In this document: positions 1,348 to 43,872 of the stretch, one piece after another
Layout of the letters: each line of letters begins with the position of its first letter
How positions within the stretch are numbered: position 1 is the stretch's first letter
DNA from: Singulisphaera sp. GP187
GTDB taxonomy: Bacteria; Planctomycetota; Phycisphaerae; Phycisphaerales; SM1A02
Direction: 5' to 3'
Assembly: GCA_945871445.1 (NCBI GenBank)
Contig: CAMBWI010000014.1
Span: 1 to 43,872, forward strand
Length of the DNA: 43,872 bases
Made by a program: the position numbers and the translations under genes
Notes under the pieces: model-generated
Database searches by the model: none
The model's input: only the letters and a program-made list of their open reading frames with translations
Told to the model about the DNA's origin: nothing

Positions 1348-4300
1348 TTACACCATCGCAGAAAGCACTTCCAGCGCGCGGCGAGCGGCCGCAAGATCCG
1401 CTTGTGCTTGCGAAAGCATACGTCTGGTTTCTTCGATGACTTCTGGCTTCGCTTTGGCGAGATAGCCAGCATTGGATAATTTGCCCTCAAATCCCGCAGA
1501 TTTACGCTCTCGATCCACAATGATTTCTTCCAGTCGCTTGCGCTCCGCGCCGACATCAACGGCATCGACGAGTGCGGAAAGCAGAAGTTCGCAACCTAGA
1601 AATGGAAACGGCACAGCATCGGCGGGCCGAGTCGCGCCATCGGAACATTCTGCGCGCTCGAGACCTGCAAGAGTTTCGACAGTACCACTTCCCTGCGCAA
1701 CGATGTCCATGATCTCCTTCGGTGCGTGTAACACGATGCGCCTTCGATCATGCACTTGTCTTTCGCCACGCACATTACGAATCGCCATCACCAAAGCCTG
1801 CACTCGCTGAAAAGATTCGATCGCCTGCGCATCATTGAGCGCACGATCAGGCGCTGGCCAACGAGCGACTGCAAGTAAATCAGACGAAGGCAAATCGAGT
1901 CCTCGAATTGGCGCAGTCGAAACACCTCGCACTGCAGTCCACAGAACCTCTGTCACAAATGGCATCACAGGATGCATCACGCGCAAGATGCCATCCATCA
2001 TTGCCCGCAGAACCGCTTGCTGAACTGGATCATTTTTCACCGTCGGCTTGATCGCTTCGAGATACCAATCGCAGAAATCTCGCCATACAAAGTCGTACAG
2101 GGCGTCTGCGATTGGGTTGAACTGATATTCAGCAAGTGCGTTCTCGATCGTGGTGACCATTCTGCAAAAACGAGCGACAATCCAGCGGTCTGGAAGTGAA
2201 ACGGGAGTGACTGCAGATTGGGAAGTTGTCGTCGTTGCCAACTGCGAAAGCGCAAAGCGCGATGCGTTCCACAACTTTGTCGCAAAGTTTCGCCCTAGAT
2301 CGAATCGACTGGATGTATTTCGCGCTAGAGGAATTGCATCCGTGGCAGTGACGAGACCAGCGGAAACTCCATAGGCCGTGACCATCTGCTTTGTCGGATC
2401 GGTTGGACACACCTGATTCGGCGCAGCAACGATATGCCCCGATTCGGTGGTGATGGTCTTGGGCTGAAATGCTTGCTGTGTAAATGGACAGAGCACATCA
2501 ACAGGCAGTCGAACATCCTGCGTTGCTGTGGACATTTGCGTTAATACAAAGCGCATCGCATCTGCGCCGTGCGTGGCAATGATGTCGCGAGGATCGACAC
2601 CATTCGCAAGCGACTTAGACATTTTCTGACCGTAACCATCTTGAACGATGCAATGAATGAAGACCGAATGAAATGGCAATCGACCATTCATAAAATAACG
2701 GTTGAACATCACCATACGACTGACCCACAGCGTGATGATTTCGCGTGCAGTCGAAAGGACCGCACTTGGATTAAATGTGTCCAACATCCCTTCCATCCCA
2801 AATCGATTTGGATTGGGCCATCCCAGCGTGCTCATTGGCCACAGTGCACTGGAAAACCAAGTGTCCAAAACATCAGGATCCTGCGTAAAACCTGCTGTAT
2901 TCAAGGCTGGAATGAGCGTTGTATCGAGCGCTTCTGGCGGGCAGACAAAGACTTCGATCCTTCCATCTGGAAGCGTTCGGCGAATCTCTGCTGCACCCAA
3001 ATCGGTCCACGCAGTTGCACTGGGAACTTTCGTCGCATCGAACGAACACGACCAAACTGGAATGCGGTGCCCCCACCATAATTGACGCGAGATGCACCAA
3101 TCTCGAATCCCCTCGTGCCAATGCTGAAATGTCTTGGCGTATCGAGCAGGGAAAAATTTCAAGCCGCCATCGCCTGCGTTGGCCGTGCCCGGCACCGCAT
3201 CGATCGAACCTTCGTATTGCTCACGATCCATTGCGCGCAGTGCGCTTGCGCTCAATCGTGGATCGGTGACTCGCACATACCACTGATCTGAAAGATACGG
3301 TTCAATCGCAACATGACTGCGCGATCCATGGCCGACGCTGTGTCGATACGGTTTGACTGCCTCGAGCAGTCCGTTGGATTTGAACCAAGCGACCACGGCC
3401 TTACGTGCATCTTCGCGTGAGAGTCCAATGAAAGGCTTTGCAGTTGCACTGACATCACTCCATCCATGACGATCACTGATCGAACCATCGGGCGCCATTA
3501 TGTTGATGACTTGGAGTTCGTGACGGCGACCGAGTTCCCAGTCGTTGGCATCATGCGCTGGCGTAATTTTCAGAAATCCGCTTGCAAACTGCGCTTTTGC
3601 ATCTTGAGGATCACCGCCCATTGCCACGGGCATCACAACATAATCGTCCTCGACAATTGGAATGATTCGATCGACGATCGGCAATCGAACGCGCTTGCCG
3701 CGCAACGCTGCAGCACGCGGGTCGCGCGGATTGATTCCAATTCCGCTGTCGCCAAGCATCGTTTCTGGACGAGTTGTTGCAACGGTGATGTGACCAGAAC
3801 CATCTTCGAGTGGATATTGCAAGTACCAAAAGAATCCATCCACTTCTTCCATTTCGACTTCATCATCGGAGAGCGCAGTTTGGGAAGCAGGATCCCAATT
3901 GACCAAACGCTTTCCGCGTTCGATCAGTCCATCGGCGAAGAGCCGAAAGAATGCCTCGCGTACAGCTGCAGTGCAAACAGGATCCATCGTGAAACGCGTC
4001 CGAGCCTCGTCACACGATGCTCCCATTTCTCTCAGTTGCGAAAGAATGACTGTTTCATATTCGTCCTTCCACTCTTGCACTTTCGCTACGAATGCTTCGC
4101 GTGAAAAATCCGTGCGGCGCTTGCCCTGCATCTGCAAACGCTTCTCCACAACTGTTTGGGTTGCGATTCCAGCGTGATCAGTTCCTGGCATCCACATCGC
4201 ATTCATTCCTCGCATTCGAGCGACGCGAATCAAAACATCTTGAAGCGTGTTGTTGAGCGCGTGTCCAAGATGAAGCGCTGCTGTCACGTTTGGCGGCGGA

Positions 4301-4431
4301 ATGAAGATGGAATATGGCGATCCAGAACCCTTCGGTTGCGCGTGAAAACAACCCGCTTGGGACCAGCGGGCGAGTATTGTTTTTTCGTGCTCGATCGGCG
4401 AGTACGATTTCGCGAGCGTGACTTCACTCAT
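1348..4431 (-). CDS. valS: Valyl-tRNA synthetase
   Basis: This 1027-residue class I aminoacyl-tRNA synthetase charges tRNA-Val with valine in the cytoplasm. The HIGH-type signature is HLGH at 54-57 and the KMSKS loop is at 603-607. An editing (CP1) domain lies between, with TTRPETMLGDSGI. The C-terminal part has the anticodon-binding region and a Leu/Arg/Glu-rich coiled coil ending near 1020, as usual for ValRS. It is longer than typical bacterial ValRS (about 880-950) mainly because of an insertion at about residues 644-708, between DVRLP and SSRFDLGRNFATKLWN, containing Cys648, His666 and Cys675. The start ATG at 4431 overlaps by 14 bases the start of the divergent TPR gene if that gene begins at 4418. 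No strong ribosome binding site is visible. Confidence 0.97.
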   Translation of the reverse strand: MSEVTLAKSYSPIEHEKTILARWSQAGCFHAQPKGSGSPYSIFIPPPNVTAALHLGHALNNTLQDVLIRVARMRGMNAMWMPGTDHAGIATQTVVEKRLQMQGKRRTDFSREAFVAKVQEWKDEYETVILSQLREMGASCDEARTRFTMDPVCTAAVREAFFRLFADGLIERGKRLVNWDPASQTALSDDEVEMEEVDGFFWYLQYPLEDGSGHITVATTRPETMLGDSGIGINPRDPRAAALRGKRVRLPIVDRIIPIVEDDYVVMPVAMGGDPQDAKAQFASGFLKITPAHDANDWELGRRHELQVINIMAPDGSISDRHGWSDVSATAKPFIGLSREDARKAVVAWFKSNGLLEAVKPYRHSVGHGSRSHVAIEPYLSDQWYVRVTDPRLSASALRAMDREQYEGSIDAVPGTANAGDGGLKFFPARYAKTFQHWHEGIRDWCISRQLWWGHRIPVWSCSFDATKVPSATAWTDLGAAEIRRTLPDGRIEVFVCPPEALDTTLIPALNTAGFTQDPDVLDTWFSSALWPMSTLGWPNPNRFGMEGMLDTFNPSAVLSTAREIITLWVSRMVMFNRYFMNGRLPFHSVFIHCIVQDGYGQKMSKSLANGVDPRDIIATHGADAMRFVLTQMSTATQDVRLPVDVLCPFTQQAFQPKTITTESGHIVAAPNQVCPTDPTKQMVTAYGVSAGLVTATDAIPLARNTSSRFDLGRNFATKLWNASRFALSQLATTTTSQSAVTPVSLPDRWIVARFCRMVTTIENALAEYQFNPIADALYDFVWRDFCDWYLEAIKPTVKNDPVQQAVLRAMMDGILRVMHPVMPFVTEVLWTAVRGVSTAPIRGLDLPSSDLLAVARWPAPDRALNDAQAIESFQRVQALVMAIRNVRGERQVHDRRRIVLHAPKEIMDIVAQGSGTVETLAGLERAECSDGATRPADAVPFPFLGCELLLSALVDAVDVGAERKRLEEIIVDRERKSAGFEGKLSNAGYLAKAKPEVIEETRRMLSQAQADLAAARRALEVLSAMV

Positions 4432-35598: not shown

Positions 35599-37332
35599 AT
35601 GCGACCATTCCATCGAGTCCTTGGGATTGCCGCTTTGGGGGCGGTTGCTTTTTTTACCTTTGTAAATTCGGCATCTGCATTTTCCAATTGGGTTGAAGTT
35701 TCTATGGCGTTTCATAAAGATGATGCGCGACTGGTCTGGCCACGAACCGCCACCACTGCGACTGGAGACAAAGTCACTTTCAGTCAGCCCCAAGTCGATC
35801 AATGGAGCGATGGCATCCTCTATGCAAAGGTTGCGACGAAGGTTCAACTGGCAAATGCAACTTCACCAGTTGAAGGAACTGTCACCCTTCGCGCGCGTGC
35901 AACAATCAATCAGGCTGATCGCACAGTGACGCTGCGTGATATCACCGCCCCTGCGCTGCGATTTCCAGCGGATGAAAATCAAATCGAGGCTCTGCGCGAC
36001 ATCGCAACGACTTCTCTGCAACGCACTCCCGTGACTATCGCATTTGACGATTTAATCGCATCAATGTTGCCACAAGCCTTTCCAACTCCTACTTCGACCA
36101 TCATCAGCAACAAATCTCCCCGCATCATCTTCCAAGATTCACTTATCGCAAACGCCACCGATTTGAACGATTCTCCTGTCGAATGTATCCAAAGCGATGG
36201 CGCATTGAAGTTTGATCCCATTGTTCTAAACCAACTCGATGGGGCATCGAACACTTCGTCTCTGCTCTTCCGCGATCACGAAGGGACTTACTACCTCCTT
36301 GTATCAGGCAGATGGCTGACGGCGGATTCCCTCAATCATTCTGCGTGGGAATTTCTGGAATCCGCACAACTACCAACTGCATTCTCGGCGATTCCCGAAT
36401 CATCTCGATGGGCGGAGGCACTGGCAAGTGTGCCCAACACGACGGCAAACCGAATTGCTCTTCTCTGCGCATCATTGCCAAGCGAACGGACTCTCTCACG
36501 AACTACCACGATCAGCATTGAGTGGCAAGGAGAACCGCAATTCATCGCAACCGATTCGCCCAATCTTTTTTGTGCAATCAACGCAAATGTGCTCGTGCTG
36601 AAACTTGGAAATGATTTGTATTGCAACACGCTTGATGCATGGTTCACTGCGCCCAATCCCAGCGGGCCTTGGACGCTTTGCGTAAAAATTCCCCCAGCGA
36701 TCGCGTCTCTGCAGATCAAGTCACCGCTGTTTCACTGTCGATTTGTCCAAGTCGCAGAATCCACCCCAACAACAGTTACTTTCAGATCAACATCAGCTAC
36801 CCGCAGCGAATATGTAAATAATGGTCTTGTTGTGTACGGCAGTGGATTTCCTATTCCTTCAGAAATGGCTGGAATCAAAGCACTCCCAACTCCGACATAC
36901 AGCCAAGGTATCTGGTGGAATCCTTGGCTGCTCGGTTTTTCTACAGAGTCATGCATCTCAATTCCCAACGCAGAGCAAGTTGCAACTGAGGCGCTTGTTC
37001 CAAACGCTGCGGAAGAAAATCACTTCGTCGGACTTGATGGAAGGGTCTATGCGCATCGTGGCGATTTATGGTTTCGTAATACTTCGGATGGTCAATGGGT
37101 CGAACTGACCGAACAGCGATCGACTCTGCGAGTTTTGCGCAGTGATGACGCGGCTCGACAAGCGGCGATTACGACACGGCGTGAATTCTCTCGGTGGATT
37201 GCGAAGCAAGAATCGCTGCGATCGAAATCGGTTGATGGATGTGGGCGCATTCTTTCGATGGATGGTGTGCGACCTTCGAGCGATGGATTTCGATGCGCAA
37301 TTCCAGCGGGAAAAATTGAGCCATCAAAATAG
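35599..37332 (+). CDS. Secreted protein of unknown function with GPW-type repeats
   Basis: The protein has about 577 residues from ATG 35599, which directly begins a signal peptide (MRPFHRVLGIAALGAVAFFTF, cleavage near SASA-F). ATG 35563 in frame would overlap the previous gene. The middle part repeats a small unit of the form YYLLVSGRWLTADSLNHSAWEF and DLYCNTLDAWFTAPNPSGPWTL, that is, an aromatic-rich strand, W(F/L), then a GPW or AWEF ending. I recall similar units in large exported proteins loosely labelled carbohydrate-binding, but this is memory, not a search. The C-terminus is Arg/Ser-rich, with FVGLDGRVYAHRGDLWFRN before it. No catalytic motif is seen. Confidence 0.7.
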   Translation: MRPFHRVLGIAALGAVAFFTFVNSASAFSNWVEVSMAFHKDDARLVWPRTATTATGDKVTFSQPQVDQWSDGILYAKVATKVQLANATSPVEGTVTLRARATINQADRTVTLRDITAPALRFPADENQIEALRDIATTSLQRTPVTIAFDDLIASMLPQAFPTPTSTIISNKSPRIIFQDSLIANATDLNDSPVECIQSDGALKFDPIVLNQLDGASNTSSLLFRDHEGTYYLLVSGRWLTADSLNHSAWEFLESAQLPTAFSAIPESSRWAEALASVPNTTANRIALLCASLPSERTLSRTTTISIEWQGEPQFIATDSPNLFCAINANVLVLKLGNDLYCNTLDAWFTAPNPSGPWTLCVKIPPAIASLQIKSPLFHCRFVQVAESTPTTVTFRSTSATRSEYVNNGLVVYGSGFPIPSEMAGIKALPTPTYSQGIWWNPWLLGFSTESCISIPNAEQVATEALVPNAAEENHFVGLDGRVYAHRGDLWFRNTSDGQWVELTEQRSTLRVLRSDDAARQAAITTRREFSRWIAKQESLRSKSVDGCGRILSMDGVRPSSDGFRCAIPAGKIEPSK

Positions 37333-42908: not shown

Positions 42909-43535
42909 TTATTTTTCACCGCCGAATGACGATGCCTTTGGTACGTGAATCGCCAAAGCCAATCTTGCCAGATAGTCCTCAGCAGGAATTTCGATCGCAC
43001 CAAGAGAGACAATGTGAGGATTGGCATACTGACAATCCAACAGCAAAAATCCACGGGCGCGCAGTCGATTGACCAGTGATACCAAGCAAACCTTACTTGC
43101 ATCGCGTCCCCCTTCCAGAGGTCGACTGAACATACTTTCGCCAAAAAAAGCCCCGCCGAGAGCGACGCCATACAGTCCTCCGACAAGTGCATCGCCCAGC
43201 CACGCTTCAACCGAATGAGCGTGACCTCGTCGATGAAGTTCGAGATAAATCTGCGCAAGGTCGCTTGATATCCACGACCGATTCTCGGGAGATCGATCTT
43301 GGGCACATGCCGTGATCACACGCTCGAAAGCGGTGTTGATCACCAACTTAAATTTCCCGCTGCGATGAACGCGCGAGAGAGTCTTGGAAACTTTCAGTCC
43401 TCCATCGTCGAGGGGCAAGATGCAACGGGGATCGCTGGAAAAGAATCCAATTTCGCCAGTATCTGGATCCGCCATAGGAAAAGCGCCTTCTCGATATCCA
43501 TCAAGCACGATCTGAATAGGGTCATTTGCTGTCAT
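42909..43535 (-). CDS. aat: Leucyl/phenylalanyl-tRNA-protein transferase
   Basis: The 208-residue N-end-rule enzyme adds Leu or Phe from aminoacyl-tRNA to proteins beginning with Lys or Arg, marking them for ClpS/ClpAP. Characteristic segments are GYREGAFPMADPDTGEIGFFSSDPRCILPL, the HSVEAWLGDALVGGLYGVALGGAFFGESMFS core and LLDCQYANPHIVSLGAIEI. Length is close to family size (about 200-240). The start ATG at 43535 directly precedes the conserved DPIQIVLDGYREGAFPM. It is convergent with ychF. Confidence 0.95.
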   Translation of the reverse strand: MTANDPIQIVLDGYREGAFPMADPDTGEIGFFSSDPRCILPLDDGGLKVSKTLSRVHRSGKFKLVINTAFERVITACAQDRSPENRSWISSDLAQIYLELHRRGHAHSVEAWLGDALVGGLYGVALGGAFFGESMFSRPLEGGRDASKVCLVSLVNRLRARGFLLLDCQYANPHIVSLGAIEIPAEDYLARLALAIHVPKASSFGGEK

Positions 43536-43640
43536 TAAAGTGAACCAGATTGAAAGGGACGCGTAAAAATGTAATCGGAGATTGCTACAAAAGCCTCTTG
43601 CACTAAGTCGTATTTGTAGTAACTTATTCCTTCCTTATAG
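43536..43640. other. A+T-rich spacer between aat and the hairpin-dense region
   Basis: No gene is supported here. It holds the upstream region of aat (minus strand) and the candidate plus-strand promoter at 43598-43640. The sharp change from A+T-rich to G+C-rich near 43641 is what marks the start of the candidate RNA. Confidence 0.5.
43598..43625 (+). promoter_or_regulatory. Candidate promoter facing the hairpin-dense region
   Basis: TTGCAC (43598-43603) and TAACTT (43620-43625) are 16 bases apart; a further TTATAG at 43635-43640 could act as a -10 for a later start. Either would start transcription on the plus strand just before the G+C-rich structured stretch that begins about 43641. The match is moderate. 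Confidence 0.4.
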
Positions 43641-43872
43641 AGGGGCCGTCGGTGACGGATGATCTGAAGCCTCGGCTTCGAATCAGTGGCGCCGCAAGGG
43701 GTGTCTTGGCGCGGCCAAGGGACACTCCAGCCTAGAGGAAGCCGCGGCAAGGGTCCCAGCGATGGACGCCCGACCCCGCGTCGAGCGTTTCCGTCGTCGG
43801 TTGAACCGATGCGGTGCCAACAGCGAACGCACTGTTGCATCGACTTCCCCTGCGTTGCAAGCCCTTTCGAGG
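43641..43872 (+). ncRNA. Candidate structured RNA, truncated by the window edge, family unknown
   Basis: This stretch is clearly richer in G+C than its surroundings and packed with adjacent stems. These are CCGTC/GACGG (43646-43658) and an 11-pair stem with one C-A mismatch around loop CTCG (43660-43685). An 8-pair GGGGTGTC/GACACTCC stem continues through TTGG/CCAA (43698-43728). GTCC/GGAC (43753-43767), CGTCGGT/ACCGATG (43795-43811) and CAACAG/CTGTTG (43818-43837) follow. I find no hallmark of RNase P RNA, tmRNA, SRP RNA or 6S RNA on either strand. The minus strand stays open over this stretch, but the translation is Arg/Pro-rich and unlike any protein I know. Orientation is assumed from the candidate promoter. 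Confidence 0.45.

Follow-up and report, generated by a model that had tools for sequence, protein, structure and literature searches.

Several groups of described RNAs invite comparison with the element reported here. T-box leaders (Rfam family RF00230) are structured 5' leaders linked to tRNA, a likeness that the present RNA seems to share; here, however, the tRNA gene adjoins the RNA, and no specifier or T-box sequence has been established. RNase P RNA (RF00010) is likewise a large pseudoknotted RNA, and one short stretch looks alike by eye, but the genome under study carries a separate RNase P gene. 6S RNA (RF00013) belongs to the same size class but differs in architecture, its fold being unlike the one described below. 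RNAs as elaborate and conserved as this one have often proved to be ribozymes, cores of ribonucleoprotein particles or metabolite sensors. A further likeness is to the orphan structured RNAs proposed as candidates in PMC2864571, which were also discovered through covariation and gene context and have no assigned function; a table in that paper assigns the motif Rhodopirellula-1 to Proteobacteria and Planctomycetes and gives no Rfam number for it. No description of the present RNA was found among the open-licence papers listed in literature searches. The RNA is new relative to Rfam release 15, and motifs outside Rfam, such as Rhodopirellula-1, are a separate comparison.

The window, that is, the whole stretch of 43,872 nucleotides that was analysed, is contig C14 of a 96-contig draft genome (G000), and its right edge is the end of the contig at position 43872. 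At its terminus, C14 carries the initial ~240 nt of a structured RNA, which occupies positions 43631–43872 of the plus strand as far as the contig reaches and is severed by the contig edge, as the initial annotation had already recognized. The rightward extension proposed there was provided by the end of another contig of this genome, C15, which contains the whole locus with the complete counterpart of the RNA; the shared region is 95% identical to C14 over 268 bases. The start of an aat-like gene adjoins the RNA on both contigs, and both features lie within the homologous ends (positions 42909–43872 of the window and the C15 end, L003). Because the homology includes the aat-like start, the two copies seem to be variants of a single locus rather than two genes. 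No tRNA or tmRNA was detected in the window. Beyond the RNA, C15 carries a tRNA-Gln gene, then glmU and then prs (Pfam families were checked). GlmU is usually a two-domain enzyme that includes an acetyltransferase half; the frame on C15 (L003, positions 3596–4423, minus strand) is short (276 amino acids), yields only nucleotidyltransferase-type Pfam matches and is without the acetyltransferase half.

The region had been described as a hairpin-rich block starting at 43641. The block is real, as conservation and covariation show, and it is larger than described; the proposed start omits the 5' strand of the outermost helix (43631–43636). The abrupt change in base composition reported with it is also present: the G+C content rises from 0.46 (43500–43699) to 0.61 (43600–43799). 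The predicted folding energy is unremarkable on the plus strand (z = -1.65, with 11 of 200 shuffled sequences folding as well) and on the opposite strand (z = -1.24, 22 of 200).

All elements of the fold lie on the plus strand, and the core consists, in order, of helix a, a short loop, helix b, P1 around P2, P3, the back strands of b and a, GCCGCGG and CCGCG. Helix a pairs UUCCUU (43631–43636) with GAGGAA (43735–43740); all six of its pairs have changed on both sides within the family, and 85.2% of the alignment cells are paired. Helix b (GGGC, 43643–43646, with GCCU, 43730–43733) is paired in 99.5% of the cells, and one of its four pairs has changed on both sides. P1 joins CGGUG (43650–43654) to CGCCG (43690–43694), with both-sided changes in five of five pairs, and the 3' strands of all three helices take part in the family covariation. 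The long stem with one mismatch in the initial annotation corresponds to P2 (43660–43685), a variable hairpin in which all eight model pairs have changed on both sides and in which a compensating exchange between C-G and G-C distinguishes the window copy from that on C15. The 8+4-pair stem reported there is P3 (43698–43728), where both-sided changes were found in eight of nine outer and two of two inner pairs. An obvious hairpin, CCGUC/GACGG (43646–43658), never varies and excludes the covarying P1. The apical loop of P3 (GCGGC, 43711–43715) reads GCGG in 55 of 55 rows and is the putative first side of a pseudoknot, for which a partner was sought in other orders (see below). The conserved GCCGCGG (43741–43747) is able to pair with this loop or with the downstream CCGCG (43776–43780), which is nearly invariant in the family and would be the second side of the pseudoknot.

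Further downstream, members of the genus contain a hairpin, GUCGG/CCGAU (43796–43810; both-sided changes in one of five pairs), and a 3' hairpin (helix 7, 43812–43856; three of nine pairs). A second pseudoknot within the latter interval (helix 8) pairs the loop GAACGCA with UGCGUU (one of seven pairs). Between 43751 and 43796, GGGUC/GACCC together with CGCGG/CCGCG compete in the genus with GAUGGACGC/GCGUUUCCGUC; the GAUGGACGC/GCGUUUCCGUC helix has one pair with both-sided changes in the genus alignment. A first fold, with an invariant 5' hairpin and a hardly varying helix at the base of P3, was dropped, and the a/b/P1 fold was adopted from 38 family sequences. This refined fold scores higher on family loci outside the genus (for example, from 43.8 to 76.7 bits at L126).

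Covariation supports the fold overwhelmingly. In the family alignment (A6, 54 distinct sequences), which was fitted to the model and is thus biased towards it, 38 of 43 pairs have changed on both sides and 93.6% of 1992 cells are paired. Not one of 500 shuffled alignments reached the same level on any of five measures; versions of the fold slid along the alignment were 41–57% paired. Five of the 38 changed pairs sit in P5 and seem to stem from rows that are misaligned; leaving P5 out gives 33 of 38. An alignment of the genus made without any model, for a fold that still contained two helices later abandoned, showed both-sided changes in 16 of 67 pairs; 0 of 500 shuffles were as good on four of the five measures, and for the fifth, which counts pair types, the figure was 115 of 500. 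The stems are therefore kept by compensatory changes among relatives, as expected of a structured non-coding RNA, and the proposal that the region contains such an RNA on the plus strand, new and outside Rfam, is supported. A protein-coding reading was rejected: one-base gaps at several places in the genus alignment argue against a conserved frame.

A DNA-level search of 61 genomes identified the RNA in G000 and in 17 of the 18 other genomes of the genus. Three other genomes of the order gave short matches (25–36 bases, E = 2.6e-4 to 0.007), and G009 and G017 gave second ones; all were set aside as chance. A covariance model built from the genus (R1) detected shorter relatives in the family, in 82 of 181 genomes at E ≤ 1 with the genus included, and a model of the refined fold (R2) gave 55 matches in 59 sources. 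At E ≤ 0.1, the family-wide model R3 had matches in 157 of the order's 301 genomes, comprising 110 of 117 in the RNA's own family and 47 of 184 in other families; each genome gave a single match apart from G000, where both contig ends matched. Of the R1 hits, four that have no tRNA (L156, L157, L168 and L169) were lost under the refined model and judged to be chance; in each of these genomes, R3 pointed to a different site, and tRNA-Gln was confirmed at one of these sites (L216). L235 was also judged to be a chance match.

At loci anchored on glmU, unfiltered R3 matches were obtained in 8 of 22 at E ≤ 0.0014 (f5, 5/5; f3, 1/1; f4, 1/1; f6, 1/8; genus g20 of f2, 0/4; other orders, 0/3), all eight of them upstream of tRNA-Gln by position. 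In 38 of 40 loci fetched from the rest of the class, tRNA-Gln precedes glmU; the same RNA architecture was recognized by eye in some of these loci and not in others. A sample of the phylum gave R3 matches in 16 of 392 genomes, 15 of them in the RNA's own order, although R3 also misses most loci of the class's other orders, and this sample does not settle other classes. The sole match outside the order (G421, E = 0.083) is without tRNA-Gln and was judged to be chance, and 63 stretches with a 16-base pattern in viral contigs were taken in the same way. In f106, four of five loci (L313, L314, L315 and L317, not L316) share, by eye, a different stretch upstream of tRNA-Gln, GTCGAGAG..GGTAG, which is perhaps another leader.

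The gene neighbourhood of the RNA is constant. Among the fetched genomes matched by R1, R2 or R3, all 90 have tRNA-Gln(TTG) as the next gene on the same strand, and glmU follows in all 89 loci that are long enough; the count leaves out the four tRNA-less R1-only hits, L235 and the window copy at its contig end. No credible match apart from tRNA-Gln was found among the fetched genomes. The distance between the RNA and the tRNA ranges from 14 to 231 nt. In f6, tRNA-Gln precedes glmU in seven of eight loci, though R3 detects the RNA in only one of the eight. Three f6 loci (L245 of G049, L248 of G053 and L288 of G057) also have an RNase P RNA gene within ~2 kb of tRNA-Gln or glmU; in G000, this gene is on another contig, and its neighbours seem changed relative to those in the three f6 genomes.

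A -35/-10 pair on the plus strand, TTGCAC (43598–43603) and TAACTT (43620–43625) with 16 nt between them, precedes the RNA as the initial annotation had indicated. The pair is weak in the window (7.0 of 13), and transcription would start at approximately 43631–43633. In 61 of 64 loci, the position of the best -10 agrees to within 7 nt. Using a scoring of sigma-70-type promoters, we obtained means of 9.27 before the RNA (64 loci), 7.21 in the gap before the tRNA (63 loci) and 7.05 in shuffled sequences, the mean over all 64 loci masking a failure within the genus. Outside the genus (52 loci), the means were 9.47 before the RNA versus 6.97 in the gap, and the site before the RNA was better in 47 loci, tied in 3 and worse in 2. 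Within the genus (11 loci), it was better in 2, tied in 4 and worse in 5 (means of 8.18 before the RNA and 8.32 in the gap); therefore, the tRNA there may have its own promoter. The first 68 nt past the tRNA scored 6.92 versus 7.03 in shuffled sequences (56 of 60 loci). Terminator-like sites were found in none of 60 gaps, where shuffled sequences lead one to expect only 0.1 of 60 so that the search has little power, and none was found before glmU. A single transcript that opens with the RNA would be the simplest account outside the genus, and it probably applies within the genus as well.

The three pairings available to the apical loop, GCCGCGG and CCGCG are mutually exclusive and nearly invariant in the family, so that the family alignment cannot tell the partner of the pseudoknot. 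In other orders, the P3 loop is variable (TCACGG, TCGCAG, ACGCGG and others, seven kinds). Among the 22 of 41 loci there that could be anchored, with patterns altered after a first run, an exact partner of the loop was present downstream in the locus's own sequence in 15 of 22 cases, whereas permutation led to an expectation of 4.9 (highest 13; 0 of 5000 permutations as high). In the same set, the run of pairs between the two strands of helix a averaged 6.06 (n = 18) versus 4.22, the highest of 1000 permutations being 5.39. The first anchored run (14 of 59 loci) had given nine own partners among 14 (2.8 on average under permutation, with 1 of 2000 permutations as high) and a helix a run of 6.43 versus 4.37 (highest permutation 5.86). 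As the sequences are related, these permutation figures are not strict probabilities. An anchor-free search of the 59 loci for helices a and b gave similar values for real and shuffled sequences (16.3 versus 15.8), and the 19 unanchored loci include L309, L310 and L313–L317, in which the RNA is unrecognizable by eye. The loop of P3 and the downstream CCGCG-type element thus appear to form a pseudoknot, with CCGCG as the corresponding side in the window.

Known RNA families were sought at several levels. The whole window had no Rfam match at gathering thresholds, in agreement with the failure of the first reading to recognize a family, and a covariance-model run on 43540–43872 returned two sub-threshold matches, the better with E = 0.58. 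In relatives, there was no match better than E = 2 in L002, L018 and L015, and only tRNA was found in five further loci at E ≤ 1 and in 13 loci at gathering. The element matched neither RF00010 (RNase P RNA), RF00023 or ARAGORN (tmRNA), RF00169 (SRP RNA) nor RF00013 (6S RNA), and the T-box model was absent at E ≤ 10 from the window region, L002, L018 and L015; it is accordingly not assigned to any of these five families. RNase P RNA is present in 58 of 61 genomes (in G000 on C61, 225 bits), and SRP RNA and tmRNA exceed their cut-offs in 37 and 36 of 41 genomes, respectively (in G000 on C20 and C73). 6S RNA does so in 3 of 41; G000 has a weak full-length match (C13, positions 37043–37221, E = 0.0015), and weak matches also occur in G009, G011, G012 and G016 and in none of the other 14 genomes of the genus. 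The 6S RNA of this genus may be divergent.

With RNase P RNA, SRP RNA and tmRNA on other contigs of G000 and a weak 6S match elsewhere, the idea of a divergent housekeeping RNA, which the first reading had left standing, is unsupported. More broadly, we consider it very improbable that the element is a highly divergent copy of one of these RNAs, of a T-box or of another Rfam family. Two resemblances would speak for such an origin, namely, GAGGAAGCCGCGG, which looks by eye like a conserved stretch of RNase P RNA, and ACCGCG, which T-box RNAs contain; the Rfam results for the window region and its relatives speak against it. That the RNA is a mere structured element for processing or stability of the pre-tRNA-Gln leader, with no further function, also appears unlikely. 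Its position before the tRNA in every fetched genome would fit such a role, but the distance to the tRNA varies widely, and the fold is, in our judgement, more elaborate and conserved than the role would seem to need.

Starting from the observed fold, conservation and gene order, and from where promoter- and terminator-like sequences were or were not detected, we consider it most likely (probability roughly 0.45) that the element serves as a 5' leader to tRNA-Gln, is released from the transcript by RNase P and then acts as a free RNA. The compact pseudoknotted RNA would form the 5' end of a tRNA-Gln(TTG)-glmU-prs transcript, which, judging from the promoter position, would start at or just before helix a. 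It would fold while emerging, through a, b, P1, P2 and P3, after which the P3 loop would grip the downstream CCGCG-type element and the polymerase would continue into tRNA-Gln. RNase P, which is found in G000 and most relatives, would then cleave at the tRNA 5' end, releasing the RNA, which most likely works alone as a stable RNA or an RNA-protein particle. A tentative alternative that deserves serious consideration is a leader acting in cis, for instance a riboswitch or a processive antiterminator, that governs whether transcription continues into tRNA-Gln, glmU and prs; it might sense glutamine, UDP-GlcNAc or PRPP, which are guesses from the gene set. The constant linkage to the same downstream genes (90 of 90) points to cis action and against a free RNA, and a leader of this kind would also be consistent with the one promoter detected for the whole unit outside the genus and with the mutually exclusive pairings in the family. 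However, these pairings are nearly invariant, the terminator-like sites that it might use were absent from the gaps and from before glmU (a weak point, given the low expectation), and the tRNA lies between the RNA and the start codon, so that RNase P would sever the leader from the messenger. The variable distance to the tRNA also does not suggest a fixed expression platform. The failure of the promoter comparison in the genus weakens the single-promoter argument there and favours neither of these two readings. We prefer the free-acting leader because no expression platform was seen and because the tRNA stands between the RNA and the coding sequence.

As judged from sequence comparisons, the element is probably a new, ancient RNA of the class that contains Phycisphaerales, cotranscribed with tRNA-Gln, glmU and prs, and is either an RNA machine that RNase P releases or a sensor RNA, the first to govern a tRNA gene together with two glutamine-pathway genes. 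The products of glmU and prs belong to pathways that use glutamine, and we know of no earlier sensor RNA for a tRNA gene plus two genes of this kind. Apart from the two contig ends of G000, a single copy of the RNA per genome was detected at the search thresholds; it precedes one tRNA gene in the 90 genomes inspected and is absent from Rfam release 15. It may represent a case of a structured RNA set in front of a tRNA gene, and it provides RNA biologists with a defined target, in sequence, fold and neighbours, in a poorly studied class of bacteria.
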